Source: Candidatus Absconditabacterales bacterium (lineage in GTDB: Bacteria; Patescibacteriota; Gracilibacteria; Absconditabacterales; Absconditicoccaceae). Taken from it: 39,438 nucleotides of DNA. The notes under the pieces are model-generated. The model searched no databases, had not been told where the DNA came from, and saw only the letters and a program-made list of their open reading frames with translations. The stretch's first letter is position 1; each line of letters opens with the position of its first letter. The stretch is from contig CALGNI010000046.1 in assembly GCA_937958645.1 (NCBI GenBank), forward strand, positions 1 to 39,438, in the 5' to 3' direction. The position numbers and the translations under genes are program-made. Positions 253 to 32,736 of this stretch are shown here, piece by piece.

Positions 253-702
253 CTATCCAAATCGTACCTTTTCCATATCAGTGATAGATGTATCATCGTA
301 ACGGCGGACGGTTGCAATCCACTCAGGAAGTTCTTCTTGGATTCTCTCTTTAAGTATCTCCATATCATGATCATCAATCATTCCTTTTTTGTTCAAAAAA
401 CTATAGAACTTTTTTATAGTACTTGCGCTTTGTTTAATGCCCGCAGAACTCGCTCGTGATGATTTTTTTATAAACCAATATCATAGATACATCCCAACCT
501 CATCACTTCCATTTTTTGCTTCGATAGGCTCTTCATACAACAAAAATTCATTGATATATAAATCAATATTGGAAAGATGCTTCTTTATGGAGTTTTCTCC
601 CAGTCATTCTTCTAGCATCGTCATCTCAAACTCTTTCAGCAACTCTTTGTTAGCAAATCTAATTTCTTCACAAGCTAATTCATACTTTGCATAATCATCC
701 AT
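253..702 (-). CDS. Recombinase-like protein with a core-binding (SAM-like) domain
   Basis: A 149-aa protein that becomes continuous only when UGA is read as Gly. The N-terminal half looks like the helical core-binding domain that precedes the catalytic domain in phage-type integrases: an acidic helix, then LGENSIKKHLSNIDLYINEF near residues 33-53, and a later SASTIKKFYSFLNKKG segment. No tyrosine-recombinase catalytic R-H-R-Y set is present, so it is a stand-alone core-binding protein and not an active integrase. Similar short proteins occur widely in Firmicutes and other bacteria, often annotated as recombinase or hypothetical. The start is the first ATG in frame; no clear ribosome binding site is seen. 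It lies in an accessory-looking region next to a phosphotransferase gene. The family guess rests on sequence pattern only. Confidence 0.6.
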
Positions 703-895
703 AGTAATAATTGGTTGTAATAATAAATAATTTAATTCTAAAACAAATAATATATGATTAGTTCTCAATAGCAACATTACAACACCTTCAATCCGAAAAC
801 TTTAAAGGCAATATCAGTAATTATTTTAGTGATCTGCAAATAATAACCTAGAGATATAGGAGTAGGTTAGGTGAGTAGTAACTTTAGATGTTGAT

Positions 896-1750
896 TTATC
901 TTCTTCAATATAATTCCTCCAACTCCACAACTACCTCCTCAATGCTTCTTTTCCTATCTTTCACGATATGATCTATACAAACATAAAGTCTTGCGCGTTT
1001 ATAATGCATTTCGATGCGATCTATGAATCAGTCATCAACTTCACCGTATACCCTAAGCATCTTTTGTAAGTTTTCTTTCCCGTATTGATGTCAAAAATGA
1101 CAAAAATCCTTTGCAGGATCAAAAATTGTTGCATCATCAAAGTCTATTATCCCTAGTCTAGTCTTTCATGCCAAGGATTCATCCCAAAAGATGTTTTTCC
1201 CATTCATATCTCCATGGATCAGACAAGGATTTGGGTGAACATATCAAAAAGCTCGCTCCACAAAAACAAAAATGTCATCTTGGAGCTTGGTATCAATATG
1301 TTCTGACAAATGAGTAATCACTTTCTCTTTCATATGCCTTACATATCAAGAATTATCGTCATCTCTAGTATATCAAATTTCTGCTAACTCTTTTCGAGGT
1401 AGGGAGTGAAGTTGCTTGAGAAAAAGTGCTATTTCGGTAAGAATTTCAAAGCTGTTATCTCTCGGTATTTCTCTTAATTTTGTTCCAGTTATAAAGCTCT
1501 CTTCCTGCCAACTTTCATCTTTTGAAAGATATAATGATTTTGGTATACGACAGTCAAATGTATTATCTAAATAACGAAGAAGTAGATGTTCTTTTTTGAG
1601 TGATTCACCTTTCCTCGAAAATCTAAAGATGTTTTGAAGATCAAACTGAATTCATTGATGACCTCGACCATCGTCAAATACTTTAGCTTCTTTATATGAA
1701 AAATCTCATTTTTCTTGCTTAATTTTATCTACGTATTGTTGAATTTCCAT
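896..1750 (-). CDS. Aminoglycoside/choline phosphotransferase-family kinase
   Basis: A 284-aa protein of the APH family (protein-kinase fold), which transfers phosphate from ATP to a small-molecule hydroxyl. The catalytic loop HGDMNGKN is at residues 178-185, with D180 as the expected catalytic base. The metal-binding IDFDDA motif is at 201-206 (D202 equivalent to the DFG aspartate). Length fits the family, usually 260-310 aa. The substrate cannot be told: APH members act on antibiotics, choline, homoserine, fructosamines and others. UGA occurs in frame as Gly, so the gene is adapted to the host code. It lies upstream of the recombinase-like gene on the same strand, with a 193-bp gap. A conserved hydrophobic-plus-HxxP segment precedes the HGD loop, as is common in bacterial APH proteins of unknown substrate. 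Confidence 0.85.
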
Positions 1751-1896
1751 TGAGTAATCGATGTAAATCAATTCGGGGTAGGGGGGGAAAGATAAAACCG
1801 TCCACTACAGAAGTAGAGAAAGTAACACAGTTTTTGTATGAGGATTATAGGTTTGATAACAAGGGATTGTTGTATCGTGCGAGTAAATTGGCTAAC

Positions 1897-1924
1897 AAAA
1901 AAAGCATCCAGTAACTACTGATGC
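1897..1924 (-). terminator. Rho-independent terminator after the response-regulator-like gene
   Basis: On the minus strand a GCATC-AGT stem pairs with ACT-GATGC (one bulged base, AGTT loop) and runs into seven Ts. It sits about 110 bp downstream of the gene ending at 2037. The rest of the 1751-2036 gap holds a 40-codon plus-strand open frame without a start codon (about 1794-1914), which may be a gene remnant. Confidence 0.65.
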
Positions 1925-2036
1925 TGTTGGCGGTTTGTATGACAACCTGCTGAACTCATAATGTCTACTGGCAATGCCTAAGCTTGGGTAGACGCCAATT
2001 ATTTCTGTTGCCAAGATAGTATTCTATCTCCGAATC

Positions 2037-2663
2037 TTATTCAAATTTTTGCTGAAGTTTTTGCCAAGATAATAACCAAGATTTACTGTCTCGTTTATGC
2101 AATCCTTCATACACATCTACTGAACTGATATCTCCAAATGTAGCAACATTACGGATAATAAAGCTTTGATGTAAATTTTCACCTCTAGCTAATCCATCAA
2201 TAAGTTTGCAGTAATTTTCTAAGGATGATAATTCTTCCCTCTGGAAAAGCTTATCATTTCTTTTATGAAATTCATTGCAACATTGTATGTCTTCATTCAG
2301 AATAGCTAAAGCTGGATCAACGGCACTTTCCCATTTGCTCACATCATATTCAAAGAACATTACATCACCATGATCAGCTATAGAAATTACTGGTATGCCA
2401 AGTTCTATGCACTTAATATGAATAAATGTTCCAAAACGTCCGTTTATGTAACTTCTATCAGAGAAGGACCAATTTTGAGGTAATTCAATGTTTGAACAGT
2501 ATGGCATTGAGCGGTCTGTGATAACAGCATCAATATCAGCCAAGGCGTTCATTGCTTCTATAAAGTTTTCAGCATAGATGAACTCATGTTCAGTAATTTG
2601 AGAGAAAAAAGATTTTGCAACTTCAAAGTTAGCTTGTGTGTCTTCAATAATTAAAATTTTCAT
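2037..2663 (-). CDS. Response-regulator receiver-like protein
   Basis: A 208-aa protein starting MKILIIEDTQANFEVAKSFF, which matches the first strand and acidic pocket of CheY-like receiver domains (E7, D8). A later strand-turn IDAVITDRSMP near residues 48-58 holds the expected phospho-acceptor aspartate (about D54, followed by R-S-M-P, as in D-x-x-M-P). After about residue 60 the match fades: the conserved K and T/S positions are not obvious, and an extra C-terminal part has no recognised output domain. No sensor kinase is nearby. All eight glycines I read use GGN codons and none use UGA, unlike most genes here. It has its own terminator at 1897-1924 and a 170-bp leader upstream, so it is probably transcribed alone. 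Confidence 0.6.
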   Translation of the reverse strand: MKILIIEDTQANFEVAKSFFSQITEHEFIYAENFIEAMNALADIDAVITDRSMPYCSNIELPQNWSFSDRSYINGRFGTFIHIKCIELGIPVISIADHGDVMFFEYDVSKWESAVDPALAILNEDIQCCNEFHKRNDKLFQREELSSLENYCKLIDGLARGENLHQSFIIRNVATFGDISSVDVYEGLHKRDSKSWLLSWQKLQQKFE

Positions 2664-2813
2664 ATTTTGCTTTTTAGTTAGTGATTTTTATTTTTTATAT
2701 ACAATACTGCACTCTTTCGAGACGTATTACTTTTCATTTTATCTATTAAGGGCCAAACTACTTATATTGACATATATAATAAAATATGTGTAAAATGCAA
2801 TAGATAGTTTGTT

Positions 2814-2969
2814 CTATACAAAAAAAGAGTGACTTCAAGCCGTTTGAAGTGACACTCTCTGTGCTTTTTTAGCTCCCTGAGGAGTAATATTTTGATATCT
2901 ATTGAGTAGATTTCTTTTTGATAGATATGATATAACCTTTTTATCCGTAAGTATTCTACGAAATTTCAT
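2814..2969 (-). CDS. Short RelE-like toxin fragment
   Basis: A 51-aa product starting MKFRRILTDKKVISYLSKRN. The first 27 residues resemble the N terminus of RelE/StbE-type mRNA interferases (pattern K.I.T.KKV..YL.KRNL...Y). The body of the toxin, with its catalytic Arg/Tyr/His residues, is missing; the rest is a short unrelated tail. The start ATG overlaps the end of the upstream antitoxin-like gene by 14 bp, the usual arrangement of such pairs. A UGA codon lies eight codons before the TAG stop, and the terminator hairpin covers these last codons. Reading UGA as stop would trim seven residues. It is most likely a decayed toxin; the homology is weak because the match is short. Confidence 0.45.
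2820..2858 (-). terminator. Rho-independent terminator of the toxin-antitoxin-like pair
   Basis: The minus strand reads AGAGTG-(TC)-ACTTCAA, a short loop, then TTGAAGTCACTCT and seven Ts: a 13-bp stem with a 2-nt bulge. The hairpin overlaps the 3' codons of the short toxin-like frame, which supports the idea that the toxin gene was truncated by a fusion to this terminator. Confidence 0.8.
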
Positions 2970-3231
2970 ATGATGGATTTGTATAAACAACAAATTCATC
3001 CTCTGATTTAGATTCAACTGTTTTTAGATCTTCTAGTACGCCATGAGGTATTTCTTGATTCTCTACAGCTATCAGGAAGGGAAAAGTGGACTCACTATCA
3101 TTCCTATGGATATACCAAGAAAGATATGAAAGAATAGACTCTTGCATATTGGTTCCTTCGCTTTCAAAATGCTTCTTAACTTCATCTAAGAAATCTTTGT
3201 TTGCGTTTATTTTTAGAACAACATCGCTCAT
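2956..3231 (-). CDS. Antitoxin-like small protein upstream of a RelE fragment
   Basis: A 91-aa acidic protein: MSDVVLKINANKDFLDEVKK followed by a helical segment and an acidic C terminus. The start resembles RelB/ribbon-helix-helix antitoxins (short beta strand, then helices), and the C-terminal acidic region would wrap a toxin. It is translationally coupled to the RelE-like fragment at 2814-2969. A good sigma-70-type promoter lies at 3259-3287, 28 bp upstream of the start. Both glycines are GGN-coded. The antitoxin role rests mainly on position and size. It could instead be an orphan DNA-binding protein. Confidence 0.5.
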   Translation of the reverse strand: MSDVVLKINANKDFLDEVKKHFESEGTNMQESILSYLSWYIHRNDSESTFPFLIAVENQEIPHGVLEDLKTVESKSEDEFVVYTNPSYEIS

Positions 3232-3258
3232 TACTAATAATGATAGATAAATGCTATA

Positions 3259-3287
3259 ATTATACTAATTTTGCTATCACTTTGCAA
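3259..3287 (-). promoter_or_regulatory. Sigma-70-type promoter for the antitoxin-like gene
   Basis: On the minus strand TTGCAA is followed after 17 bp by TATAAT, 28 bp upstream of the ATG at 3231. Both hexamers and the spacing fit the housekeeping consensus. It lies immediately downstream of the tRNA-Ser 3' end. Confidence 0.7.
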
Positions 3288-3299
3288 GTTTATCAAATT

Positions 3300-3386
3300 C
3301 GGTGAGGATGGGATTCGAACCCACGGTACAGTTTCCCGCACACTACCTTTCCAAGGTAGCGCCTTCGACCACTCGGCCACCTCACC
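3300..3386 (-). tRNA. tRNA-Ser (anticodon GGA)
   Basis: An 87-nt class II tRNA. The acceptor stem GGTGAGG pairs with CCTCACC, the D-arm contains GGCCGAGTGGTC, the anticodon loop is CTTGGAAAG with GGA at its centre, the variable arm is long as in tRNA-Ser, and the T-arm contains GGTTCGAATCC. The discriminator base is G. CCA is not encoded, so the 3' end must be added enzymatically. It reads UCC/UCU serine codons. Confidence 0.95.
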
Positions 3387-3500
3387 ATCTAGTTATGTCA
3401 TACTATTGTTGTTCTGTTTAATCTCCAGTTCTGTTGCGCCATCATGTTATATATCAACATAACCATCTTCATTACGCTTCGCTGATGAAGTTGGGTGTTT

Positions 3501-3523
3501 AATTAACTCGGCCACCTCACCAT
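3501..3523 (-). repeat. Partial copy of the tRNA-Ser 5' end (copy 1)
   Basis: This 23-bp sequence is identical to 3639-3661. Eighteen bases match the 5' end of the tRNA-Ser gene plus its upstream AT (3371-3388). The rest of the tRNA is not present. Both copies are preceded, on the tRNA 3' side, by a CGCTTCGCT string reminiscent of the tRNA D-arm-to-anticodon stretch. Together with copy 2 this fills most of the gene-free stretch 3387-3774. Confidence 0.8.
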
Positions 3524-3638
3524 ATAAGTACTGTTTACTATTTAATTTGCATTGTTGCCTTAAGTAAGATTGTTTTTCACGATATATATTCCTTGCATCT
3601 ATTCAATCTGTCGCTTCGCTCGGATTTCATAGGCAAGT

Positions 3639-3661
3639 AATTAACTCGGCCACCTCACCAT
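3639..3661 (-). repeat. Partial copy of the tRNA-Ser 5' end (copy 2)
   Basis: Identical to copy 1 over 23 bp and spaced exactly 138 bp from it. It lies upstream of the tRNA on the tRNA strand. The pieces may be remnants of integration at the tRNA gene or of local duplication. Confidence 0.8.
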
Positions 3662-3678
3662 GACAATTGATGGTGGAA

Positions 3679-3772
3679 AATTGATAATTGAAAATTTATT
3701 ACCAGTACTATGCATACTGAAATACTTTTCATTTACTATTAATTTTCAACTATCAATCCTCAATTATCAATT
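3679..3772. repeat. AT-rich inverted repeat behind the antiporter gene
   Basis: AATTGATAATTGA (3679-3691) and TCAATTATCAATT (3760-3772) are perfect 13-bp inverted arms, with further partial pairing inside. The structure starts just after the antiporter stop codon and could act as a 3' stem-loop, although no clean T-run follows. The same TTATCAATTATC wording recurs at 16036-16076. Confidence 0.55.
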
Positions 3773-3774
3773 AT

Positions 3775-5874
3775 TTAGTGCTTTCTCCAAATCTCATCAT
3801 CCATCTCCTGTACAAACTGCTGATAGATCTTTTGGGTAATCATGTCTTTGTGATAGAGCTCTTCGATGAGCTGTTCTTCTGATTTGATAATGCTCTTATT
3901 CAGCAGATGTTCGTTGATAGAGTTGGCGAAATCTTCGTCTTTGGCTCCATATTCCTGCATCTCATCGTGAGCGTTTTGATGGAAAGATTCGTAAAGTTTT
4001 ATTACTTTGCTGAGATGTTTTTGATCATATCAGAAATCAATTTCCATCAATGATTTGAGATCGCCAATAACGTTTTCGGTGATAATGTATTTGGCTCTAG
4101 AGATAATGTATTCGTTGTGTTCATCGTCTTGATCACATTTGGTAAGCCAGTACATGATACGCTCGATAGGATATCGACTTTGGGGTCTAATATCAGTACT
4201 GGATTTAAATCACCTGATCTGATTATTTCCTGCTTCGATTCTTGCTCCTTGAGTTTCTATCTTAGCGCTACGCGAAGCATAGATCGACTCTGAGATCTCA
4301 TTGTATGAGAACATTTCATGAAGGTATTCTTTCTCGATTCCCAAAGCATGGAGGGAGAGAGCTTTAGAAACAAGCTGGTCTGCGTTTGGCTGTTGTTGCA
4401 AAAATAACTGCATCTGGAGATTCGACTCATCCATCTTAGACTGATATTTCTGGATCAATGATTCTGACTGTCCTGGAGAGATTTTGTATGCAGTGGTCAT
4501 GGACTCTATCTTTTTGATGATACGATTATATACCAAGATATGAGATTCCAAAAGTTCAAACTCCTCAAGATCAGCTAAACCTCCGATATTTAGTTTCTTG
4601 ATAAGCGGCTTGATCGTGAGTCAGCGGATGATAAGCGAAAACATGATCGCGAGGATCGTCAGAGCGAGGATATATGCTTTGGGAGTGAAATCATAGGTCC
4701 ATCAAGGAACCAAGAAAGAGTCTGGTATCAATAACACCAGCATCAATCATAAAGCTCACCTCAACGATCACCGTGCGAGAAGATGCTGTCGCTTTTTCGG
4801 TATATTTTGTTGTTTGTTTTTTCTGAAAAAATTTACCAGCCCTATAGGGAGATACACCGCCAGAGCCCTTCAAACGATAAGCAACGCAATGATCACTAAG
4901 ATAGAGGGGAGGAGAATTTCTTGAGACAGACCGATGAACTTCACCATCATCCCCATCAAGATAAATACTAGGGAGTTGGTAACAAATGAGAAGAAGCTCC
5001 AAAACTTGTCCATATAGGCTTCTACTTTGGGAGAAATCTTCGTCTTACCATAGTTACCCATGATGATCGCCGCATAGGCCGTCGCGATCACTCCAGAGAT
5101 CTTAGGGTCAAATCAGTCGAAGCTCACTACATGCGTTACGTATTCTGCTATAAGGAACACCACATGCGCCAACACCATAGTCAGCGTGATTTCTACATGC
5201 TCGTTATTTCTAATATGTTTGATAACGCTAGAGAACAAAAGTCATAAGACAGTCCCGAGGATAATCCCTCAGATCACCATCATCAAGAAGTCTCCAATCC
5301 CAGACCAAACACTTCCTGCTCAGAAGTTTCCTTTACGGATAATTTCGATCATTACCAAAAACACCGCTACAGCAATACCATCATTGAACAGGCTTTCTCC
5401 TTCGAAGATCAGTCCAAGTTTCTTAGGTACTCATAAGTCTTTGAAGATCGCTAACACCGCCACAGGATCAGTAGAGGAGATGATCACCCCAAACAACAGC
5501 ATCACTTCGATAGGGATAGTGATCCCCAGTGCATTCAAGATATATCGCCCTCATCCTCAAACAATAGCCGTACTAATGATCAATCATAAGATCGCTAAAG
5601 TCCAGATCGTTGCATAGTTTTTGGTGAGTTGCTTATACTTGATATGATATCCAGCTTCGAATATCAGCACAGGCAAAAACACAAAAAACAAAAGTTCTGG
5701 AGTCAACGACAGTGTTTCTACCATGTTCCGCCCAAAAAACGTATTGATCGGCACCAACAGCATTCAAACAATGAACAACAAGATGGTATACGGAACCTTC
5801 ATCATCTTTGCCAGATGATGAATGAGTGATGCGATCACGAGTAAGGTACATATAACGATAATGGTTGAGAGCAT
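3775..5874 (-). CDS. CPA1-family Na+/H+ antiporter with long cytoplasmic tail
   Basis: A 699-aa protein continuous only with UGA as Gly. The first 400-odd residues form about 10-12 membrane segments. They carry the CPA1/NhaP signatures STDPVAVLAIFKDL and EGESLFNDGIAVAVF; the Asp of the ND pair is the expected ion-binding residue. The part after about residue 440 is hydrophilic and helical, holds no recognised TrkA or cNMP domain, and probably faces the cytoplasm. The likely job is exchange of cytoplasmic protons against Na+ or K+ for pH and ion balance. The start ATG gives the expected N-terminal membrane helix. It is divergent from the giant gene at 6023, with 148 bp between them. No partner gene is seen. 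Confidence 0.9.
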
Positions 5875-6022
5875 GGTGTTTCTTCGTTACCAAATGTTTT
5901 TAGTGGTATGGTTGTTGGGGGTTTTTTCAAGTGAGAGAGAAAACCATTGAAAAAGACATCTTAAAATTGCGAAAAAACCTCCTCATACGTATACTTATAG
6001 TGAGTATTTTCTTCTACAAATA

Positions 6023-9000
6023 ATGAACCCAAAAGACAAATTTTATGAAGATCTGTATAGGTCAGAAGTAAATAAAGAACCCACCAAAGAAGAGTTGGTA
6101 AATTTTGTTGAATCTAAACAACTAGAGTTGAGTACTCTACTAAATAAAGAATGAGAAAAGAATCTTTCATTGGTAGATATAATTACTCTGAGAGAAAAAC
6201 TATCATTACCAGAGTATATTAGCCTAGATGACTTCAATAAGCTCACGCAGCTACATATTGGTAAAGACATAGCGGATACTCAACGATATAATGAACTATT
6301 AATGTTACCAAAACATGATAAATTACTAGAGGTGCAGTCTCACCAAGCACCAACAGTAGAAAAACTTATTAAGTATCAATGATCAAAACTTGCTCAATGA
6401 TTGGTAGAAATTGTCGCTAATGCGATTGATGCAAGTAATCCAAATCAAAATATCTGAAGATTTTGAGAATGATTTTATCAAGCATTGAAATTTCTGGAGA
6501 ACCATGAAGATATTCTTACCGTCTCTACCAAAGCTTCGTGAACTTCATGATTTGATGTGAATTTCAAAGAAGATAGCGGTATCAAGATATGAACCTTGCA
6601 TAATAAGAACCTAGAACAATGAACAAGTGTTTCACTTAAAAAGAAATTAAATAATGAGACCTTGCAGCAACTTTCATGATTCGCTAACTCAAGATTTAAA
6701 ACAAATACATACGCAAATGTGTATCTAAATTGAGAACTCCTCAATGACTTCAAGGATACTACAGTCATCAATGGTGAGAAACTAGATATGACTAATAAAC
6801 CTGAGGTACATATTTCAATAGACTATAACGGATTTTCTATTAAAGACCAAGGAATTGGAATGAATAGTAAGACGATTGCTGAGAAATTAGTGTATCCGAC
6901 GGGGTCATCAAAGAAAAAAATAAATCCTTCAGAGCAAGAGCTTCCAGAATTAGTAAAAAAGGAAACTAAATTTTTCTATACGAAAAGAAATAAAACTAAT
7001 GAAGAGTCGATAGTACGTTTGCAGGTAGCAGGAGTGGTAATCGAAGAATTTAAAACAGAGACAGTTGGGAAAATAGAGTCATTTACTCTAGAGTGTCCTA
7101 GTTTCACGTGGTTACCCGAATCGAGAAATCAAATAATTCCAGAAAGATGTGTAGTATTAGCAATTCAACAATCACTGGCAAAAGTCCAGAAAAAATGATG
7201 ATTAATGGAAGAAAAAATAATGCTCACAGAAATGTTGGGAAAAATTATAAATAAACTCAAGAAGAGGAGAACTGATGAAACCAAAAAAGAATGGACACTG
7301 GATTATGTTACCAAGCAAGCATTCGTACCGCTCAAGCAAGAGATAGAAAATGCCTGAGGTATTGTGCTTCCAGGAGATAAGTATCTCATGAATAGATTAT
7401 GAAGTCCAAAGTGAGTATATTTTGTCTCACCAGATTTTGTAGATCTTAAGATTGAAAAGATTCCGAATATCAAGCCTCTCGACAACATCGTAGAAGATCC
7501 TAGATATAAAAGATTCCTTAGAAAGAGAGTGTTTTATACTATTCCATTTGGGATAAATGCGGAACATGATTATCTCATTACACCTCAGGCTATCTTAGTA
7601 AATAAAGATATCTTAGAGAAGGGAGATATGCAAAGGCAATTACTCAATACCTCAATCAATCTAAATATCTGATATGAGTTGCCAGAGGAGACTGTATACT
7701 ATGGAAGGATAGAAGATGCGGAAGTATATGTACAGAATAAAAAGAAGAAAGATGCGGAAGAGCAGTCAAGAAAAGCAAAATTATGAGAAACTCAGAAACA
7801 CAAAGAAGAGCAAGAAGAGGCTGAAAGGAAAAGAATCAATGCTTTAGCTAAAGAAACCGTAGAAAAATATAAAGATTTCTTGTTGAGTGATGAGAATAAT
7901 CACAATACAGCGGTAAAACAATTGAAGGATGATAGTACTTGAATTTACGGATTATTTTCTGCTATAGAGTCCAACGATCTTTGAATGATTACCTCTCCAG
8001 AATCGCTCCTTTTTTGCTGCATCACTTCTACCAGGTCAATAGAGCCAGATCGCCATACGCATCATAGCAAGTATTATGATAAGTTTTCTAGATTTATCTT
8101 GACGAATACAAACTCTGTTATTGCTTCTGCTATCAAATGAATAAGTCCCCTAGTGAGAAAGGTTAAAGATCCGAAAGTAAGTGCTGAACTAGTAGAAACA
8201 CTCATCGAACTCTATGAAAAAGAGCCAGAGTATATGATGCAAACAATAGAGAGGTTTGAGAAACAGTATGATGGAAACACGGGATGGGAGATTTTTGTGA
8301 AGTTTTTGGAATCAAAAGCAGTTGATTCAAAAATTGAAAAGCAGAAGTTTAAGATTCCTTATGATGAGATTAGTAAGAATGTTTTTACTCATCCTTCCAT
8401 GGTATTATTCTGGAAAAATCAAGTTCTTGATTGATTTAGTGATCTTGAGATTGTCTTTGCGAAAGGCTATATAAAGATACTTTCAACCTTATCTTATGAT
8501 GAAATATATGACTTTCATGGTTCTCAAGTAATTGTGCCAGAATTTAATAGTCTCTGCGAATCATACTTCTGATCGAGATCTTTCGCAAACAAAGATATTA
8601 TTGTAAAAATTACGGCGAAATATTTAAATACACTAGACAAAGACGGAATTTATTCTGAGGAATGCTTTGATCATCTGAGTATATACTATGATCAAGAGGA
8701 AAAATTACAGCCATTTCTTGAAGAAATATCAAAAGGATTTTTACCAATAAATAGTCATGCATTTAATGCCTTTCTTAGATTCTGGTTAAAAGAATGAAAG
8801 TCTTGCATCTTTGGTCTTGAAGATCTAAACGAGGGATTTATTGATGAGACATTTATTGAATGGAGTGTTGAACTTGATGAGTTGTTAGGTCATCAAATAT
8901 TGAGCAATGAAAAAGTTAAGCAATTATTTGAAACGTTAATTCAAGATTGAGAGATCAATGTCGATGACGTTCTTCATCAAAATCCTGGATCCACCATGGA

Positions 9001-12000
9001 TCGACCAACTATGGAATCGATTCACCATTCAAGCATGCCAAAGGTTGTCGAAAATTTATATTGAATTTTAAGCGAATGAAACAAATTTGACTATCCTCTT
9101 GCTAATTTTTATCATGATTTATTTAAGTATTACACAACGAAAAAATATATTCATAGACAACTTCAAACTAATTCGGTATTTAGAGAGACTTTATGTGAGA
9201 TGATGGAGATGGAAGAGATGCAACTTGATGATACTAATAATTGGAAATCAGAATGATTTTATGCTGAAGTTACTGATAATTTCACTGAATTTTTGAGTAA
9301 TTTTTACACTTTAAATATCGGAGAGGACTATCCAATTATAACTATAGGTGATACCTCATATGATCTTCTTAGAAATTTGTTAGTTGACCATTATGATAGT
9401 ATGAAATCTCTCTTGTTCCCCGCAGATCTTGATACAATTCATGTATTCACAGGAATTATTAATAGACTTTTGCATAAGAAATGATTAGCTCGAAGAAGTA
9501 CGATGATCTTCGCATGAAAAAAAGTTTATGAGACTCAGGGAGAAATCTCTGACCCTGCAATGGAAAAATTAGTGGAATGATATTCATTTGATGATCTCGG
9601 ATCAAGTCCTGATGATAAGACTACTGAGAAGAAAAAAGTATTATGTCTATATTACTATCTTTATTTTAGATTGCTTCAGCAAAGGAAGAAGGAGCAAGAG
9701 AAGGAAAAGGAATTGAGTGAAAATCTTGCAGTGAAAAGTAAACTAGATCAGCTGAATGAAGAGTTATGGAGTGATGGAATTGATACCTTGATAATACCTT
9801 GATCGGAGATTGATTGAAAATCTCATTATCTTCATTTACAAATGATGTTAAGAGATTTAGCGTATATGTGATATTGAGATAAAAGTAAGAAATTTATTGA
9901 AAAGTATCCGAATTTAGAATTTTTAAACGAGGTGTCAAATCGTTGAGTGCTATTTGACGACATTTTTGGAGAAGAAGTAGATCATTCTCTTGTGCTAGTT
10001 AGGATAATTGATTCTACATATAGACTCTTGTGATTATTGTCATTTGAGAGTAAAATTCAGTTGCTTTTATATGTTAAAAATTTAGGAGAAGTTCCATTTA
10101 CTGGACAAGAGCAATTTCAATTTATAAGGGAAGAATCAATTAGATTACTGAATCTTGATTGACAATGATCAGAACTACTATCTCCCAACGATTGGAAGAA
10201 AATTGCTATTGTTCTAAAGATGATTTCCGAACTCTACTTCGCTAGAAAGGAAACAGATTTTTCGCAGCCTGAAAAGCAAAAATACACAATGTTTGATGTA
10301 AGGTATAGTAGGGTGTTTGAGGAAATTTTGTCTAGAAATTCTCTGGATCACTTGGATCAATGAGCTATTTACAATAGACCTCAATTGTCTTGACTATTTG
10401 AACAGCTTAAAAGCAATGGAATAGATATTTGAAAGTGAGGTATTAGAGCAGTAGTGAATAGTCTTCTTGAGTATCGTAAAAAATGACTTTCTGAAAATGA
10501 CTTAATAGAGTGTGGAGAGTATACAAAATGAGATAGATCCAGTGGTAAAATTTCTAATTCTGAGGCTTTTAAGGCTAAGCGATTGATTAATGCTCAATCA
10601 GAAAGCAAGGCCTCAAAGATTGGATTTGGTTATAGAATCGAACAAGAAATCATCAACTTCCTCAAGGATTTAGATTCAGAATCAATCACTGCTGAAGTGC
10701 AAGTTGTCCAGTTTGATAACGAACTAGAGCAATTGAAGAGTAAGATACCCATAACAATTGATACATCAGAGTCTTGGTTAATTTGATCGTTATTTAAACT
10801 ATTTGACCGTTCAAAATGAGAAATTCGTAGTGAAGAAAATCATCTTTTAATTAATGAATTCCCAGAGTTTAGTCCTTTGATTGAATTTATAGCTGAAAAT
10901 TGAACTATAAACCAATCTTCATATTTGGAATTATTAAATAAGTATATATTTGGAACTATACCTGATAATGAGGAGTGACCATTTTTAGATGATTTACATC
11001 AAATATACTCTGATTCTAGTATTTCAGATAACCAAAAAATAGGTGCTATTGAGAGAAAGTATAATAATAGATACTGATTATCTAATCTTAGTGGTTTGCG
11101 AGATATATGTCTTCCAATGCTTCTTGTTCATAGAAATATCTATAATAGTAGAACACAGAATAAACTAACCCTCCCTCAAAAATTCACCAATACAATGTTT
11201 GACAAAGATTACCATGAAGTATTTAATGTGATACACAATTCACAGGAAAATGATATTTATAAGAGGGATGATTTAACCAAGATCTGATTATGAGAATTGC
11301 TTGATGAGTTGTGAATCTTGGAAGGTAAGAACAGCGCAAGTACATTACAGCGTTTGCGATACTTAGAAGTATTTTATAGATCATGATTAAGTAGTCTTCA
11401 AATCCAAACATTTAAATCTCTATGCGAAACATTCAATAATGATAAAGTCAATGAAGAAAGCGTAATTGATTTCTTGCAAAGAAAGAAAGATCACCCTGCT
11501 AGGTCCAGTATTGAGTCAATGTTGGATCAATCTGGATCTAGTTTACAGTCAATCTTAGAAGGAATTGAGTGTGAATCTATGATTATTAATTATCTAGCGT
11601 CTCTTAAAGAAAGAAAATTAGCTGGAGAAACTCAAGTAGCGACTAGGCAATCAGTTATCATCGAACTTTCCAAGACTTACCCTCAGGATCTCATTATTTT
11701 TGCTCAGTTCTTGTTAGAAGGTGGGGAATTGCTGAAGGAATGAAAGTCGGCGGTAGAAGCGTATTGAGAATCAACAGATTTCTTTCTATCTGAACTTATA
11801 TCAGCTAGTAGAGCTTATCCCCAAGACTTAGTCTGAGTTAGCTCAAGACAAAAATTTAAGGAGCTTATCTCTAGGACTCAAAAGGAAGAGCCCTTTAGTT
11901 TATCACAATTTAGATCTCATACCTTTAGTACTATCGAATGACAAGACAGAGGTAGTATGGTGTTTATTAGAGAATGTACGCAGAACTCTAGAGATGCATG

Positions 12001-13612
12001 AGCAACGCAAGTGCTAATCAATTACTTTACTGAAAATTGAAATCGAGTAACTAAAATTGAAGATAATATATGAATGAATTTACATAAAGTTGTTAACTAT
12101 CTTTTGGTTCCTGGGCAATCAGAAAAATACGCTGAGAAGTGAGATGTGGGAATGTTTGGTCAATGATTCTGGAGTACAGCAATAAAGGCTAAGGAGATAA
12201 GAGTGAAAACTGGAAATGGTAATTGAGAAGTGAATAGTGCCATAATATCTCCTTTGTTTGATGAAGAGAAGAATCTCAATGATTTTCGTATTCAAATTAC
12301 AACCAAGAAAGAAGAATTCACTTGAACTATTATTGAAAGGGTCGATGCTTTTGAATGAATACAGGCAAATTTGAGAGCAATGATCTGAGTGCATAATATG
12401 CAAAAATATATTTGAAACTTATCAGATATATCAGTAATGTACTGAGATCAAAAAATGAATAAGAAACAGGACCTCCTTGTTTTGGAGAAAATCATCGTTG
12501 ATTGATATTGAGAGATGAAACTCCAAAAAAACAAAGACAATATTCCAAGATGGACTAAGACAGACTTATTTATGAACGAAACTCCAGAGAGATTTTTTGA
12601 TGATTTACCAGCTCGAATGACTGATTTTGTTTTATCTCAAAACCTATCAATCAATATCCCAACGTGATTTTGACATCTTAAAAGTTGGAATTGACGAACC
12701 CCAGAAGATGAAAACTATCAATCACTTAGACCCTATCTCTTTGATATGTTTATCAAATATATTCTCAAAGAAGTAGTGAAGAGTAAAATAAGAATTCCTA
12801 TGTTGCCAGAAGATTACTTTGGTTTGGACATCTATGAATGAAGACAGACAGAATCAAGTAGGATAGCTCAGAGATATATCAACTGATCACAGCTACATGA
12901 TAGTGAAATAACGCATCTTAAAGATAAAGCTCATATGGCAGAATTTCTTGTGCAAATTCCCTTCGAGCGAAACTGACATACCTTATCACTATTGGATATG
13001 AAAAGAAGAAGAAAAGATGAGGAGATGAGAAGTGAGATGAATCTTCAATGATGATTGTTTGGTCGTCAGTTTTGAGCATACGCTGATATGTCTGATTGAT
13101 TACAAAGGAATATGGAGATGGTAGAAAGGTTAGTTCAGTCCTTGGAGCAAACAGCGGAACTGTTATGAATAAGTGTAGAGAGAGTTGAAGGCTTCTTACA
13201 TTTTGTAGAGGAAGATCCAGGGTTCAAGGAGACTTTACAGAAGGTATTTAAAAACCAAAATATAGAATCATACGAACATAGCTTTTATCTTAGGCAATGA
13301 TGAGAGTCTAGAGCTGCATTGTATGGTATAGGATGAGGGAAAGCATATATTACCTGGAATCTGAAATTAGAATGACAGAGGAATGTCTGAAGTCATTTGA
13401 TGAAGCGAATAAATGCGATAGAGGCAGATCCTAAGGATGAGGAACTTATTCGTGAAATGAAAGAAACTATCTCCCATGAATTTGTTCATGAAGTAGAAGT
13501 TCTCACGCTCAATAAACCAAAACGATGAACTCATGAGAAAGATCTTGAGCATGATGAGAGTTTTGAAAAATTGCAAAGAGATATGCTGACCACATGGACG
13601 AGATTGCTTTAG
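6023..13612 (+). CDS. Giant protein with two GHKL ATPase modules and a C-terminal HExxH motif
   Basis: A 2529-aa protein in one frame with very many in-frame UGA (Gly) codons. Module 1 (about residues 115-330) has an N-box with E129, N133 and D136 (EIVANAIDA), then directly a GRFGEGF lid motif at 145-151, GTSVSL at 200-205, and only later the DQGIGM Mg/ATP motif at 275-280. The usual order is N-box, G1, G2, GT. A charged coiled coil lies near 570-620, then a long helical region of no recognised family. Module 2 has the normal order: RECTQNSRDAGA with E1984, N1988 and D1991; EDNIGM at 2013-2018, one residue shorter than the usual DNGxGM; and GMFGQGF at 2043-2049. Near the C terminus HEFVH (2485-2489) and a later HDESF (H2510) resemble a minigluzincin zinc site. 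Hsp90, MORC and sacsin show the same ATPase fold, but I recognise no known family overall. No neighbour is co-transcribed. Confidence 0.85.
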
Positions 13613-13622
13613 AAATATCTCC

Positions 13623-14606
13623 CTACCCCAACTCTCCAACAAACCCCTCCAACTCCTTCTCCCAATCCTCTCAAATCTCCGTTTTTAAACCAGCTGCAGA
13701 TTTGTGCCCACCACCACCAAACTTGGCTGCGAGGTCGGCAACGTTGATTCATCCTTTGGATCTTAGGGATGCTTTTAGGAAGGGAGGGGATTCGTGATTG
13801 TGGATCTTGATGAGTGCGAAGACTCAATCGTGTTCGATACGCGTCATGATTCACAAAATGCTATCTGCTTTTTCTTTGTCCAGGTCGTATTGTTCTAGTT
13901 CTTCGTGACGGTAGTAGCTATAGATGACGCCATTGATTTTTGTAATTCTCTGGCTAAGTTCTCCCAAGAATTTGATGCTTTGGAAGCTCGCTGATCTATA
14001 GAGCTTGGAAATAATGGTTTTTTTGTCAGCTCACTGATCTACAAGATATGCTGCGAGTGAAAAAGTTCTAGAGGAGTCTTTCTCATAGATGAAGTGTCCT
14101 GTATCTGTAGAGAGACCTAGGAATAGATACGTAGCAACTTGTGCATCGATTCGGCTTGGATCACAGGCATGCAACAGTTCTGTGAGTAATTCACAAGCAC
14201 TACTCGCACTTTCATCTACGATATTGAACTTAGCGTATTGGGTATTGGAATAATGATGATCTATCACAAGTGTGTTCATTTTTTCAAAATATGCTTCATG
14301 TCCTACCCAAAACTCTTTGAGAAGCTGTGTAGGATCTGCTGTATCTAAGAAGATAAGGAGATCATAGTGAGGGTGGAAATCAAAGTTTGTCTTAAATTTT
14401 TCTATCCCATCAAGAAAATCGAACGACGAAGACGGCGTTTGTGTAGTATAATAACTCACTTGCTTACCAAGGTTTTCTAAGACAGCTCCGATAGCGAGAC
14501 ATGAACCTGCTGCATCTCCATCGACATTGCGATGACCAAATAATGCAATGGTGTTTGCAGCTAACAGCTGAGTCTTGAGTTGGGCAGTTTGATCATGAAT
14601 TTTCAT
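13623..14606 (-). CDS. DHH-family phosphoesterase, NrnA-like
   Basis: A 327-aa DHH/DHHA1 protein, the usual size for NrnA (oligoribonuclease/pAp phosphatase). Motifs in order: GHRNVDGDAAGS (residues 24-35, metal-binding Asps), LDTADP, the DHH motif in VIDHHYSN, LSTDTGHF, and the C-terminal DHHA1 glycine motif GGGGHKSAAG, which binds substrate. The enzyme would degrade short oligonucleotides or dephosphorylate pAp to AMP in the cytoplasm. It starts 12 bp downstream of the CaCA exchanger stop, so the two are probably one transcript. Its stop lies 10 bp from the convergent stop of the giant gene. A link with the CysQ-like gene at 27731 is possible, as both can remove pAp. Confidence 0.9.
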
Positions 14607-14618
14607 ACAGAAGTAGGT

Positions 14619-15584
14619 TTATATAAATGCAGTCAGTTTGGCTATAAATAGTACATACAGAAGCAATAAAGCAACTCCCTCTCGAAGCACGATCTTATTG
14701 TCCAGAGTCATGATAATCGTAAGAATCGAGACCAAGATCAAGAATCCAAATCAGGTCGTATAGGTAAAATCTGACACCACCAAATCTCAAAAGAAGGCAG
14801 GAATCCCAGTGATGAGTGTAAGATTGAAGGTATTTGATCCAAAAACATTACCAAATGCAATTCATGGATTTCCTCTTTTGATGGCCATCACCGAGGTGAG
14901 TACTTCAGGGAGCGAAGTCCCAAGTGCTACTACTGAAAGCGTAAGTACTGATGAACTAATTCACAATAAGGTAGAAATCTCTAAGACACTATCAATCAAG
15001 TATTTCGCTGAGAAGGCTAATGCAGCCATACTTACGATGATGATTGAAATATATGTAAATAAGTTTTTTGGATTTTTTTCTAATGAATGTTCAACTTCTT
15101 TGACTTTGTCATCAACGGTTTCGGTCTCTTCTCCTTGACTGATACTATACAAGATAAAAATCACAATAAACGCTAGCAAAAATATCGACTCTTGCCAGGT
15201 AATGATTCTATCCCATGCCAGAAACAGGAACATCGACATAGAAATAAAAAAAAAGGGAAGATCTACATCGATGAGTTTTGTGTTCACGACAAGTTTCTTC
15301 GCAACGATCGATCAGATTCCAAACACCAAAAGGACATTGGCAATATTGGATCCAATCGCTCCGTCTACTACATATTCTGGTAGTCATCAACCGATCACAG
15401 CATAGATACCAGAGATCAATTCGGGTAATGATGTTCCCAAAGCTACAATAGTCGCTCAGATGATAAACGAGCTCAATCCAAACATCAGACCAAGTTTTTC
15501 GCTATATTCTGTAAAGTAATCAGATGATTTTACTAGTCCTACTAAGGAAGCAAGAAAGATTCAAATTCGTGGTAAGAGTCACAT
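14619..15584 (-). CDS. CaCA-family Na+/Ca2+ exchanger (YrbG-like)
   Basis: A 321-aa inner-membrane protein with about ten helices and the two hallmark alpha repeats. The first is GATIVALGTSLPELISG with GSNIANVLLV, near residues 40-85. The second is SVVALGTSLPEVLTSV with GNVFGSNTFNLTL in the C-terminal half. The acidic residue in each TSLPE is the expected cation ligand. A charged loop with many E and K separates the halves. It would move Ca2+ or another cation against Na+ or H+. Standard-code reading breaks it in several places because many of the helix glycines are UGA. The gene is followed after 12 bp by the DHH phosphoesterase gene. ATG is followed directly by a UGA glycine codon. Confidence 0.92.
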
Positions 15585-26600: not shown

Positions 26601-26624
26601 TCTACACAAACTTCTACACAAACT
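26601..26624. repeat. Perfect 12-bp tandem duplication over the Nudix stop codon
   Basis: TCTACACAAACT is repeated exactly twice. The unit length is a multiple of three, so the Nudix frame meets TAG at 26614-26616 and the same TAG again 12 bp later. Confidence 0.85.
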
Positions 26625-27669
26625 TCCCATGATGTTTCATGGCCCATTGGACTTTAGTCAGCTGCTCATTCGTTATCCATTCTGTTTTTTCTAGATCACT
26701 AGATCCTTCTGGACTTGGTGAACCAGTGAGTACTACTCATTTTCGGGCGATCGTTGCGGCAGGTCCGCGGGTGTCTCAAGGATTGAAGTCAGGTGATTGC
26801 GGATCTTCTATGTACAGTATTGGTTCTTGATCGATTGCCACTCATAATTTGTAAGCCCTTATCGTTCAGGTTATTAATGTATTTCCTCAAATTTCTTCTT
26901 TTTTATAATTGATCTTTTGCGCAATGATTTCATCTGATACTTTGAGTCAAGAGGTTTCTTCGAATCACTCCCTGATTGCACTAATGATGCTGGCTTGTTC
27001 TTTAGATAATCCTAATGATGATCCAATAACTGCATCTTGTTTGTCGATATATCATCACACCCACGCTGATCAACGTGGATATTCCTTTCTGGTTCATACA
27101 AGAATATGATCTTTAGCTCAGGAGTCACTTAGAATTAGATCCACTGCTCCCGGATTATCGGCTTTACGTAGTCAAGAAAAATACTCTAGGCTTTGTTTCT
27201 TGATGTTTTCGTCCGATAGGTAGAGATTTATGATGGAACCATCAGGATCAAATCAAGTGTATACTGAAAGCTCATTACGCCATCTTGCGATTTCTTCTGT
27301 ATTTTCTGATGCTAGTCATCTGTGATACATTGCAATTTGAAAAGCAATAGACCTTTCATAACATTTTATCTTAATGGCTTTATCGATGTTGGTGCTGTTG
27401 GTAAAATCTCAAGAGTATGATACTAGCGTGTCCATGAGAGAGCTTGCGATATTTTTTTGTAATTGCTGATGATCTACGAAGCTGATTCAATGTAATTTTG
27501 CTCATGATTGTTCACAAAGAGTTTCAATAATTTTCTTTTTGCTTAGTTCACAGAAATATCATTGTTTATTACTTACTTTAAGATCTAGAGATCCATGAGA
27601 TCCTTGCTTGTGTATCAGTTTTTGTAGGTTACTATCTACGGTGGCAGAGTTGATTAGAATAGTATTCAT
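26614..27669 (-). CDS. Nudix hydrolase with a large N-terminal domain
   Basis: A 351-aa protein. The Nudix box is in the second half: GSSLGLSKEQASIISAIREG ending in REGFEETSG with R233, E234, E237 and E238 (consensus REUxEExGU). It sits behind YPRGSAWVGGYIDKQDAVI. The N-terminal 190 residues are not recognised; they carry no zinc ribbon, so this is not a plain NudC. A Nudix enzyme here could cleave ADP-ribose, NADH or dinucleotide polyphosphates. It is the last gene of the NAD block. The region upstream carries a TGTA-N5-TAGAATAAG box (27698-27715), 29 bp from the start. Many glycines, including one in the Nudix box, are UGA-coded. Confidence 0.85.
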
Positions 27670-27697
27670 AAGAGAAGAGTGAGGTAATAAATGTTGC

Positions 27698-27715
27698 TGT
27701 ATATATTAGAATAAG
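27698..27715 (-). promoter_or_regulatory. TGTA-N5-TACA-type box upstream of the Nudix gene
   Basis: TGTA-TATAT-TAGA-ATAAG: one mismatch in the second half-site compared with the boxes at 31802 and 32585. It lies 29 bp upstream of the ATG, so it could be an operator or a promoter -10 region. Confidence 0.4.
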
Positions 27716-27730
27716 ATAAAATCAAAAAAA

Positions 27731-28555
27731 TTAATTCAATCTCGTGGGCTTGAGTAAAAACGCTTCCATAATCTTTTCTGAAACAGCTCAAGGTTTATGG
27801 ACCATAAATGAATTGTTGAGAGTGGTTGGAGTATTGTAATTTATTCCTTCAGTGATCAGTCATTCATGAGTAGAGTTTACTAACAATCAAGATTCTCTCG
27901 CGATAAGTTCTCCGGCTGCGGTATCTCGATGGTGTGTGCTACGGTTTTGTGCAAATAATTCTCATTCATCTTCTGCCATAAGACAGAATTTGAGTGCACT
28001 AAAGACTCTTTTTTGTTGCACTGTTGAGTGGAGAGATTGAAGTTGCTCGGTAGTTTTTTGGTATGCTTTTGGTTCGCTATTGATGAAGCGATAAGGATTA
28101 GTTTGAGCAGCTCCAGTTTTAAGTTTTTCTCGTTTTCCTTTTTGTCGCTTTATGCTTCATTTATCTTGTTTAGCACTGTAGAAAATCTTATTTTTAGGAT
28201 CATAAATCGCACTATATACAGGTCTGTGATTTACCATAAACGCTACGCATATACAGAAATTTCCGCTTTTATACATAAAGCTTTTGGTTCCATCTATTGG
28301 ATCGACCAACCAGTATGATCATAGTTTTTCTTTTATTTTTTGTTCAATTGGAGGTCCTTCTTCAGATAAGATTGGCGCATCAATTATTGTTGGGAGACCT
28401 TCATTTAACATGATGTGTGATGCCAGATCTGCTCTGGTTAGAGGTGAATTATCGCTTTTTTTCTTGGCTTCAAAGTCTCAGGAAGTATAAATATCCATGA
28501 CTTCTTCTCATATGTTGTCCAATAGTGGAAGCATTTGTTTATCAAGAGAGTTCAT
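27731..28555 (-). CDS. CysQ/inositol monophosphatase-family phosphatase
   Basis: A 274-aa protein of the Mg-dependent, Li-sensitive phosphatase superfamily. Motifs: DNSPLTRAD at 35-43, LSEE at 63-66, metal-binding DPIDGTKSF at 85-93, and near residue 215 HHRDTAAGE in place of the usual WDxAAGx. Family members dephosphorylate inositol phosphate, pAp (CysQ) or related compounds. The closest pattern is CysQ, 3'(2'),5'-bisphosphate nucleotidase. pAp and NADP recycling would fit the neighbours: nadK lies 97 bp upstream and the Nudix gene 61 bp downstream. Its start, ATGAACTC, follows no clear ribosome binding site, as for most genes here. Confidence 0.85.
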
Positions 28556-28652
28556 GGGATACGTAAGATATAAATTATTTTCTTTCTTATGGATTGATAG
28601 TGACAATATAACTTTTTTCGTTTTAAAACATAGGTCTTATTGTTGACATGTT

Positions 28653-29486
28653 CTAGTTTATGACTCATCAGTTTTTTCAAAGAATTACATTTCACAATGA
28701 TTCTTGGGCTAATAGGATTCTTCTATCATGATAATCTTCATCATGCTTGAAGGCGATCTTTGCATATCTTTCTGGTGGATAGATGGTTACTTCTTTCACA
28801 TTATCTATCATATTGTCTGGATTTTTCCCATCATGAGCTACTTTTCGAGGATCTCTTCATCTCGTGTCTGTGATGGTGATTTCTTCAGGTTTGAGATATC
28901 CCCATTTGAATCATTTTGGTCGAGCGCAGGTAACCCCCAATAACTTACTTTTCATATCCATGAGAGGTAAGTCGCCATTCAGAGCTTGTCACGTAGATCA
29001 TAATGGAGTATTGATGAGTGCTTCTGAGCAAAATATATCGATCAGTTTTCATTGGGTCTTTGAAGTTAATTCGAAGCAATGGAAGTTTCCTCAATACACT
29101 CCAATCAAGAGGTCATTGATAAAGAAGTTATCATGTACTCCATTGTCGTGAGTTGTAGTTTTGGTATTGATAATGGGAACATCAATGATATTGAGCCCTT
29201 CAAGCGTCTTTGGTAGGTCTGGTGTGTTCATATGATTCAAGATAAATCATACCGTACCCGCATTGATACCAAAATATATTTTATCTAGATCCTTGTATTT
29301 TTTTATCATCTCGATCATGAAACCATCGCCTCATCAGACAAGTAAGATATCTGCTTCTTCCGGGCTCTCGACAAGGAGTATTTTAGCAAGATTATCTTTT
29401 ACAATAGTATTGATTCCATCAAGTTTGGTCTTCTTTTCTTGATTTCCGTAGTCTTGATCTAGGAGGAGATGGTATTTGAGAGTCAT
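28653..29486 (-). CDS. nadK: NAD kinase
   Basis: A 277-aa protein, typical for NadK, which phosphorylates NAD to NADP. The diphosphate-binding GGGDGFM is at 51-57, GINAGTVGF at 73-81 (usually GINxGxLGF), and LINTPLGSTGQALN fits the TPTGSTAY signature. A C-terminal segment resembles the beta-sandwich domain, ending with VAHDGK, which matches the D-G-x substrate contact. The gene lies 30 bp downstream of nadE, consistent with one transcript pncB-nadE-nadK. Three glycines in the catalytic motifs are UGA-coded, so standard gene callers would miss it. Confidence 0.95.
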
Positions 29487-29516
29487 GGGGAGAGGGTTAT
29501 TGATAAAGCTTGTTGA

Positions 29517-30389: not shown

Positions 30390-30432
30390 GGTTTGGGTAT
30401 AAAGAGTAAAATAAGAGTTTATCTGTGTAAGA

Positions 30433-31785: not shown

Positions 31786-31801
31786 GATGTTGCATTGATG
31801 G

Positions 31802-31819
31802 TGTAAAATATACAATAAG
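31802..31819 (-). promoter_or_regulatory. TGTA-N5-TACA box upstream of pncB
   Basis: TGTA-AAATA-TACA-ATAAG, 17 bp upstream of the pncB ATG. The same 18 bp occur upstream of pncA. It may be an operator for an NAD-responsive regulator or part of a shared promoter. Confidence 0.5.
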
Positions 31820-31964
31820 ATGCAGGTAAAAAATATATAACCAAGACTGATTTTTTATACTTTTTACCTAACTTTCTTCAGATCTATAGATTTAAGTTTG
31901 CGCAATAATGTGCCTGTGCCAAAAAGCGTATCTGATTGGCACGCTATTGTATTTGTCACAATAA

Positions 31965-32570: not shown

Positions 32571-32584
32571 TTTATAATAGTTAG

Positions 32585-32603
32585 TTGTAAAATATACAAT
32601 AAG
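32585..32603 (-). promoter_or_regulatory. TTGTA-N5-TACAA box upstream of pncA
   Basis: TTGTA-AAATA-TACAA-TAAG, a perfect 5-bp inverted repeat 15 bp upstream of the pncA ATG. It is identical over 18 bp to the pncB box and similar to those at 32771 and 38528. Confidence 0.55.
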
Positions 32604-32637
32604 TAGCGTGTAAAAAAATAATAGCAGATAGTTGACC

Positions 32638-32736
32638 TTAGAATTGGTATGGGGTGTTCGTAGTCATAGTTTCTGTGATAGAATGCATCCCATATAGCAT
32701 AGATATTTCGTAAGCCGATCTATCTATTAATCGCAT
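32638..32736 (-). CDS. Possible 32-codon leader ORF
   Basis: ATG to TAA gives a 32-aa peptide beginning MRLIDRSAYEISMLYGMHSI. It starts 35 bp downstream of the TTGTA box at 32771 and ends 35 bp before the pncA box. No ribosome binding site or known family is seen. It could be a leader peptide or a chance frame in the 450-bp gap (32571-33021), which otherwise holds the box, a terminator and inverted repeat copy A. Confidence 0.2.
   Translation of the reverse strand: MRLIDRSAYEISMLYGMHSITETMTTNTPYQF

Follow-up and report, generated by a model that had tools for sequence, protein, structure and literature searches.

A giant gene with two GHKL modules and a zinc-peptidase-like tail

The window analyzed here is a 39,438-nucleotide stretch of contig CALGNI010000046.1 from a Candidatus Absconditabacterales bacterium (class Gracilibacteria), and positions 6023..13612 of its plus strand hold a giant gene whose product joins two GHKL ATPase modules to a C-terminal HExxH motif. 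The gene is a single frame in genetic code 25, 2529 codons long and free of internal TAA and TAG, with 89 TGA codons decoded as glycine. Shuffling the same bases 200 times gave TAA/TAG-free runs of at most 159 codons, bearing out the uninterrupted 2529-residue frame described in a first-pass annotation of this DNA. TGA makes up 89 of the 152 glycine codons (59%), compared to 20 to 42% in four neighboring genes, as would fit a gene that differs from them in its history or level of expression; the source genome has one copy of it. The giant protein with two GHKL modules and a terminal zinc-peptidase-like motif is thus a confirmed observation; its anatomy is well supported, and we infer its function. 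The gene and its parts are as follows, with the supporting evidence in parentheses.

6023..13612, plus strand: giant gene with two GHKL modules, variable helical middle, and C-terminal HExxH (frame, shuffles, homologues)
6317..6448, plus strand: GHKL module 1, block A, N-box helix EIVANAIDA with E129, N133, and D136 (alignment, block test)
6449..6793, plus strand: GHKL module 1, block C, straight after the N-box, with G2 NIGRFGEGF, strands, G3 G200-T201, and the NGE.LN strand (matches L020 protein 92-201 and PDB HtpG 132-201)
6794..7006, core 6794..6916, plus strand: GHKL module 1, transposed block B, with two strands, G1 DQGIGM (D275/G277/G279), lid helix, and a linker of ~30 residues (matches L020 protein 51-86 and PDB HtpG 72-124)
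7007..7135, plus strand: GHKL module 1, block D, beginning of a transducer-like domain, ending in LPESRNQI (block test, hhalign)
7136..7717, plus strand: remainder of the domain behind module 1, kept in all three Gracilibacteria (alignment)
7718..7864, plus strand: residues 566-614, a long charged helix that is probably a coiled coil (AlphaFold2 secondary structure)
7865..11674, plus strand: middle of ~1270 residues without a recognized domain (Pfam, comparison with class-mates)
11675..11914, plus strand: helical lead-in to module 2 (LLEGGELL), alike in the homologues of another class (alignment, BLASTP)
11915..12352, plus strand: GHKL module 2 in canonical order, RECTQNSRDA (E1984/N1988/D1991), EDNIGM, GMFGQGF, GTIIER (Pfam, NCBIfam, PDB profile, foldseek)
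12353..12838, plus strand: transducer-like domain behind module 2, with W2222 at 12686..12688 (alignment, foldseek)
13220..13609, plus strand: putative WLM/SprT-type zinc peptidase domain, with HEFVH at 13475..13489 and the candidate third ligand His2510 at 13550..13552 in H..SFE..QRD.L (invariant H, E, H, and H; weak profile matches)

The one long predicted helix at about residues 566-614 agrees with the coiled coil proposed earlier.

Homologues and distribution

Homologues were recovered by searching with each end of the protein separately; a full-length query against 40 relatives and 145 genomes of the class matched the window alone. Two full-length homologues come from another family of the same class, 1952 amino acids (L010/L012) and 1835 amino acids (L011/L013) in length, and these class-mates share 36 to 39% identity with the window protein in module 1 and 34 to 35% in module 2. 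Others were found in another Patescibacteria class (1822 amino acids, standard code; L020), in a metagenome-assembled genome (MAG) of Oligoflexia (1846 amino acids; L015), and in an Omnitrophota MAG (1638 amino acids, cut off near the contig end; L014). Every homologue found contains two GHKL modules, and the whole layout is kept in the five proteins with intact ends, in what we count as three phyla. The same-length homologues that the first-pass annotation proposed to look for were not found: the relatives measure 1822 to 1952 residues against 2529, being shorter because their middle differs. Read from the sequences, this middle is helical in the window protein, beta-like with repeats of ~41 residues in L010, and of other sequence in L011. 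The repeats of the L010 protein (gene at 9022..14880; GDIHTGEDGKLRGRIKIDG to LFIGDEIIETIGG) look beta-rich by eye where the window protein has helices. The N terminus of the Oligoflexia homologue (L015, 9248..9350) is hydrophobic and signal-like, odd for an ATPase unless it is membrane anchored or active in another cell.

The gene is rare, with 3 carriers in about 350 genomes of the class. A module-1 profile searched against 352 genomes of the class found the two class-mates only, and no carrier besides the window was found among 49 genomes of its own order. Plasmids and phages searched by tblastn with P0004 and P0006 yielded no homologue, and viral contigs gave no match with the full protein or the A2 or A3 queries. 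A GHKL protein of genome G334 (L018/L021) stands alone and was set aside as not belonging to the giant-protein family; weak matches to phosphomannose isomerase, TcaA, PBP1A, and others were taken as chance.

Module 1 is, by sequence, a GHKL module with a transposed block

The ordinary order of a GHKL domain is N-box, G1, lid, G2, G3. Module 1 of the window protein contains all four motifs in the order N-G2-G3-G1 instead of N-G1-G2-G3: the N-box (residues 129-137) is followed after five residues by G2 (143-151) and then by G3 (200-201), and G1 (KDQGIGM, 274-280) comes last. Judged by alignment, ~40 residues comprising two strands, G1, and the lid helix lie ~125 residues downstream of their ordinary place, giving a block order A-C-B-D rather than A-B-C-D. 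E129, N133, D136, G148/G150, G200-T201, D275, G277, G279, and M280 are invariant in the three Gracilibacterial carriers. In the module 1 of the Omnitrophota, Oligoflexia, and other-class Patescibacteria homologues, the motif order is ordinary.

These three ordinary homologues served as references in a block test, in which blocks A, C, B, and D of the Gracilibacterial modules were each aligned to them and compared with 500 shuffles. Block B mapped between A and C in all nine comparisons, with z scores of 6.0 to 15.2 for B and 5.5 to 14.6 for C; for the window against L020, A mapped to 14-48, B to 51-86, C to 92-201, and D to 214-256. The block B alignments to the canonical homologues were 33 to 53 residues long, the best with 18 of 33 identical. 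Blocks A and D scored more weakly, D not significantly against the Oligoflexia protein. In one of the nine block B comparisons, the top shuffle scored as high as the real sequence. A chance motif as the source of G1 was rejected on this test. The same crossing appears against known structures: a three-member module-1 profile matched HtpG/Hsp90 in the PDB at 3e-6, with profile positions 30-102 on chain residues 132-201 and profile positions 143-193 on chain residues 72-124. When BLASTP was used to compare the window and L020 proteins, a 42-residue gap opened precisely at the vacated G1 position, and hhalign aligned C and D of module 1 and left B out (9e-21). The Pfam scan of the window protein did not recognize module 1, indicating that such rearrangements escape standard domain annotation.

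The swapped modules of the three carriers form one clade (98/99), so a single event accounts for all of them. Duplicating B-C in tandem and then losing the first B along with the second C would be a possible route. The resulting geometry is plausible, since the N-box helix and G2 would meet at the nucleotide and a short A-C link is possible; the long linkers would sit where block B must reach back. The AlphaFold2 model of module 1, built from three sequences, has a mean predicted local distance difference test score (pLDDT) of 61, and the top foldseek matches of this low-confidence model are all of the Hsp90 family (8.7e-6, probability 0.97), at a template modeling score of about 0.2. Module 1 as a GHKL domain is therefore supported by sequence, not by structure. 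The N-terminal ATPase module claimed in the first-pass annotation stands as a GHKL domain by its profile match to HtpG/Hsp90, not as an ordinary copy, as its motif order is rearranged.

Module 2 is a canonical GHKL domain

The second, canonical ATPase module of the first-pass annotation is confirmed as GHKL. It is the sole GHKL domain that Pfam sees in the protein (HATPase_c_3, 1.8e-8 at residues 1982-2073, above the cutoff), and its motifs run in canonical order: E1984, N1988, and D1991, then D2014 to M2018, G2043 to G2048, and G2101-T2102. The AlphaFold2 model of module 2 plus the tail, from four sequences, has a mean pLDDT of 54; foldseek nevertheless matched Hsp90, MORC, and MutL over the ATPase and middle domain of module 2 (4e-11, probability 1.0). 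An SRN-like motif follows each module (LPESRN after module 1, LTK[ST]RN after module 2), which we take to recall the arginine of the SRE motif in the Hsp90 middle domain. The Patescibacterial homologue (L020, 3678..9146) has ~190 additional residues between the N-box and G1 of its module 2, suggesting that module 2, too, tolerates large changes near the ATP site.

The C-terminal domain is a putative zinc peptidase

The HEFVH proposed earlier as a zinc-peptidase-like motif is present at residues 2485-2489, made up at its key positions of H2485, E2486, and H2489, with H2510 as the candidate third ligand. In the five proteins with an intact C terminus, the two His and the Glu of HExxH do not vary, nor does the distal His, the remainder of the domain being only about 17 to 42% identical (MAFFT alignment with the end of the Oligoflexia sequence trimmed). 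The distal His, in a context resembling H..[SF]F, comes 9 to about 46 positions after the HExxH. The WLM profile scores 21.7 bits in the Oligoflexia member (gathering threshold, 26), the SprT-like profile about 13 bits in three members (gathering threshold, 25.6), and the tail matches the Wss1 structure 5jig at 13.7 bits. Ligand pattern and weak matches together suggest a putative WLM/SprT-type zinc peptidase. The tail is modeled by AlphaFold2 at a pLDDT of <50. Of the folds that the first-pass annotation named as support if predicted, the GHKL fold was recovered for module 2; the module 1 fold and a minigluzincin fold were not confirmed by prediction. Alignments of three to four sequences were too shallow for AlphaFold2 to settle either of the latter.

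Origin of the module pair and a viral counterpart

In a tree of the collinear parts, a single branch (84/91) separates all module-1 rows from all module-2 rows. This split into separate groups implies that the pair predates the divergence of its carriers or travelled as a unit. Branches in this tree are long, and the evidence is accordingly moderate that the pair is ancestral and its members not interchangeable.

A 330-kb jumbo-virus contig (L036, IMGVR_UViG_3300028840_008160) encodes a 552-amino-acid GHKL protein followed directly by one of 1324 amino acids. By hhalign, the former is far closer to module 1 (1.5e-15) than to module 2 (6.5e-5). The latter has the module-2 motifs TIxxQ and LTKxRN and is assigned by these motifs and by the tree, as its profile scores about equally against the two modules (1.2e-9 and 2.2e-8). 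Immediately upstream are a gene for a HEHSHH protein with a vWA-like part and an AAA-like gene, neither recognized by Pfam. The cluster is possibly a split version of the giant-protein family, and two modules recurring as separate partners, if the assignment is right, would favor a heterodimer-like clamp. Annotated phages searched with the viral proteins P0007 and P0008 gave no match, and further viral scans recovered the L036 contig alone. Within this cluster (454..10453), the 1324-amino-acid protein also has hydrophobic segments and a weak RIIA match. Another viral GHKL protein, of 522 amino acids (L037, 4860..6428), lies between genes resembling those for a single-stranded DNA-binding protein and RecA and probably belongs to a separate phage GHKL family.

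Genomic setting

The giant gene lies between a DHH phosphoesterase gene and a Na+/H+ antiporter gene. The neighboring DHH protein has a 69% identical counterpart in a genome of the same genus. In a same-genus genome (G002), the two flanking genes are 650 bp apart, and the giant gene is absent, with a short unrelated open reading frame (ORF) between them. The cargo of this interval thus differs, being the giant gene in the window (flanks 5875..6022 and 13613..13622) and a short convergent ORF in G002 (L034, 6507..7157), indicating a variable site and an accessory giant gene. A contaminant contig was rejected because the neighbors are native to the genus, and a mobile element was rejected in view of the lack of an integrase among the neighbors and of convincing flanking repeats. 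The neighbors are housekeeping genes with no defense genes among them, and PADLOC returned only a match to TmtA at 12.4 bits. Near the giant gene of one class-mate (L011, 12865..15447), and not near the others, are genes for a ClpB/ClpC-like chaperone and for a peroxiredoxin. Elsewhere in the window (26614..38517), a run of genes reads as NAD salvage and ADP-ribose metabolism (NUDIX, NAD kinase-like, NAD synthetase-like, nicotinate phosphoribosyltransferase-like, nicotinamidase-like, ADP-ribosylglycohydrolase-like, and phosphoribosyl pyrophosphate [PRPP] synthetase-like), an unusual concentration for a reduced genome.

A proposed ATP-driven clamp protease and its rivals

We consider it possible, at a little short of an even chance, that the protein is a one-chain ATP-driven clamp coupled to a zinc protease. 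At either end of the chain, a GHKL ATPase with its transducer-like domain would form an Hsp90/MutL-type unit. With ATP bound to both, the two different units of the same chain would close together, unlike the identical-subunit pairing in Hsp90 and MORC. The variable middle may be the arm gripping a client, helical here and built of beta repeats in a relative, and closure would deliver the client, most likely a damaged or foreign protein, to the C-terminal HExxH...H site to be cut. In Gracilibacteria, the G1/lid block would act from behind the rest of the ATPase, its lid tethered to the transducer instead of running from G1 to G2. GHKL proteins in general cycle as ATP-dependent clamps (PMC12733681), and the GHKL part of VcSduA is proposed to control a C-terminal effector nuclease (PMC12137116). 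Also in favor are the layout shared by the five proteins with intact ends, the old and non-interchangeable module pair, its recurrence as separate neighbors on the virus contig, the foldseek matches of module 2 to Hsp90, MORC, and MutL, and the crossed order of blocks B and C.

Several points weigh against this clamp protease. The structure models are poor (pLDDT of 61 and 54, with the tail below 50), leaving the rearranged and peptidase folds without confirmation, and every WLM/SprT match lies under its gathering threshold. W2222 of the window protein replaces the Arg of LTK[ST]RNAI found in the other members, so the ATPase of its module 2 may be weak. Dimerization between chains could take the place of closure within one, and no conserved neighbor points to a client.

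The same anatomy could belong to bacterial sacsin-like giants that remodel proteins as chaperones only, their HExxH domain being degenerate or structural. Module 2 does match the NCBIfam sacsin ATP-binding domain and Hsp90, and sacsin, a giant itself, has three Hsp90-like modules and shows chaperone activity (PMC3710099), but the invariance of HExxH and the distal His in an otherwise divergent domain is what would be expected for a selected metal site, and we regard this explanation as unlikely. Improbable to a similar degree is an anti-invader effector whose ATP clamp would sense phage or plasmid DNA or protein and license the protease; the first-pass annotation had linked giant GHKL proteins elsewhere to anti-invader roles. 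Its rare and patchy presence, the variable locus, and the precedent of VcSduA, a defense protein combining GHKL with an effector enzyme (PMC12137116), would fit such a role, but the housekeeping neighbors, the single 12-bit PADLOC match, and the lack of homologues in the plasmids and phages searched speak against it. We give little credence to a factor of host-dependent bacteria that is directed at a host or prey and active in the other cell, where ATP is available. All carriers found belong to Gracilibacteria and other Patescibacteria, Omnitrophota, and Oligoflexia, among which host dependence or predation is frequent, and the Oligoflexia protein has its signal-like N terminus; the window protein and its class-mates, however, have none, and the carriers are too few for a test.

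Two further explanations concern the protein itself. Module 1 might be a decaying pseudo-ATPase that lost G1, the later D.GIGM being a chance or unrelated motif, as its being missed by Pfam and the low model confidence around the pocket might suggest. The moved block nevertheless aligns with block B of three canonical homologues (z up to 15), and the D, G, G, and M of G1, the N-box Glu and Asn, and the G2 glycines are invariant in three carriers, arguing against decay and leaving this a slim chance. An assembly chimera or frame artifact might be suspected from a single carrier in an order of 49 genomes, but the same order of parts occurs in two independent assemblies of other genera, the neighboring genes are typical of the genus, and homologues from other phyla repeat the layout, making an artifact close to negligible. 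Of the undescribed ATP-driven machine envisaged at the outset, the two-module GHKL giant with a zinc motif and a recurrent layout therefore stands; the anti-invader role has no direct support, and the block transposition had been overlooked.

Significance and comparison with known systems

Each kind of domain is known; in the libraries and literature searched, neither their combination nor the shared family nor the block swap turned up. The earlier statement that no protein with this combination is known is borne out within the searches of Pfam, NCBIfam, PADLOC, and PHROGs, and a literature search, mostly without subscription papers, found no permuted GHKL domain. There is a fair chance that the swapped fold is a first. 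Tentatively, with somewhat less than an even prospect of being right as a whole, we propose an undescribed family of one-chain ATP-dependent zinc proteases with two unlike Hsp90-type engines, the Gracilibacterial branch of which would be the first natural block-swapped (A-C-B-D) Bergerat ATPase, its lid free of G2 and tethered to the transducer. ATP-dependent proteolysis is usually regarded as AAA+ territory, and a self-contained GHKL-powered protease, if true, would be a different solution from AAA+ rings. Relocation of part of the first ATP module within the chain would likewise be a new way to build a very old fold, a natural experiment on whether the GHKL lid must be the G1-G2 loop. With the canonical homologues in other phyla as ready controls, small domains would suffice to address both questions in vitro.

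Among known systems, Hsp90/HtpG is the top PDB profile and fold match of both modules and likewise joins GHKL to a domain with an SRN-like motif. The giant protein differs in its two unlike units per chain, zinc-peptidase-like tail, and reordered module 1, with no C-terminal dimerization domain seen; the full-length NCBIfam HSP90 model scores 25 bits against a cutoff of 455. Sacsin is also a giant with several Hsp90-like modules, and the earlier label "sacsin-like" holds for module 2 at the domain level: NF047352, the sacsin ATP-binding domain, scores 51.7 bits in the Oligoflexia homologue, above the cutoff of 50, and 29.2 in the window protein. The giant has two such modules, not three, and a C-terminal HExxH; DnaJ, HEPN, and ubiquitin-like parts were not found in it. 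MORC and MutL share GHKL plus an S5-type domain and an expected ATP-driven closure. The label "MORC-like" stands only at the level of the foldseek match; in the Pfam scan, models for MORC and CW were not matched. MutL-alpha pairs two GHKL subunits as a heterodimer (PMC12733681), whereas both units of the giant are on a single chain, and CW, nuclease, and other MORC/MutL parts were not found.

The tail resembles the WLM/SprT minigluzincins (Wss1, SPRTN) in having, after its HExxH, a third His that precedes an aromatic residue, with weak profile matches below the curated thresholds. It differs in being fused to ATPases, a fusion for which the WLM/SprT families are not known. A MoxR plus vWA-metallopeptidase chaperone pair has been described for jumbo phages, which the AAA-like and vWA-like HEHSHH genes beside the two GHKL genes of L036 resemble; that pair, unlike the giant, consists of separate genes, and the available part of its description does not mention GHKL neighbors (PMC7824862). 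VcSduA, finally, carries its GHKL ATPase and its effector enzyme at opposite ends, with control by the ATPase proposed; it differs in having one GHKL per chain, a nuclease as effector, and a demonstrated anti-phage role (PMC12137116).

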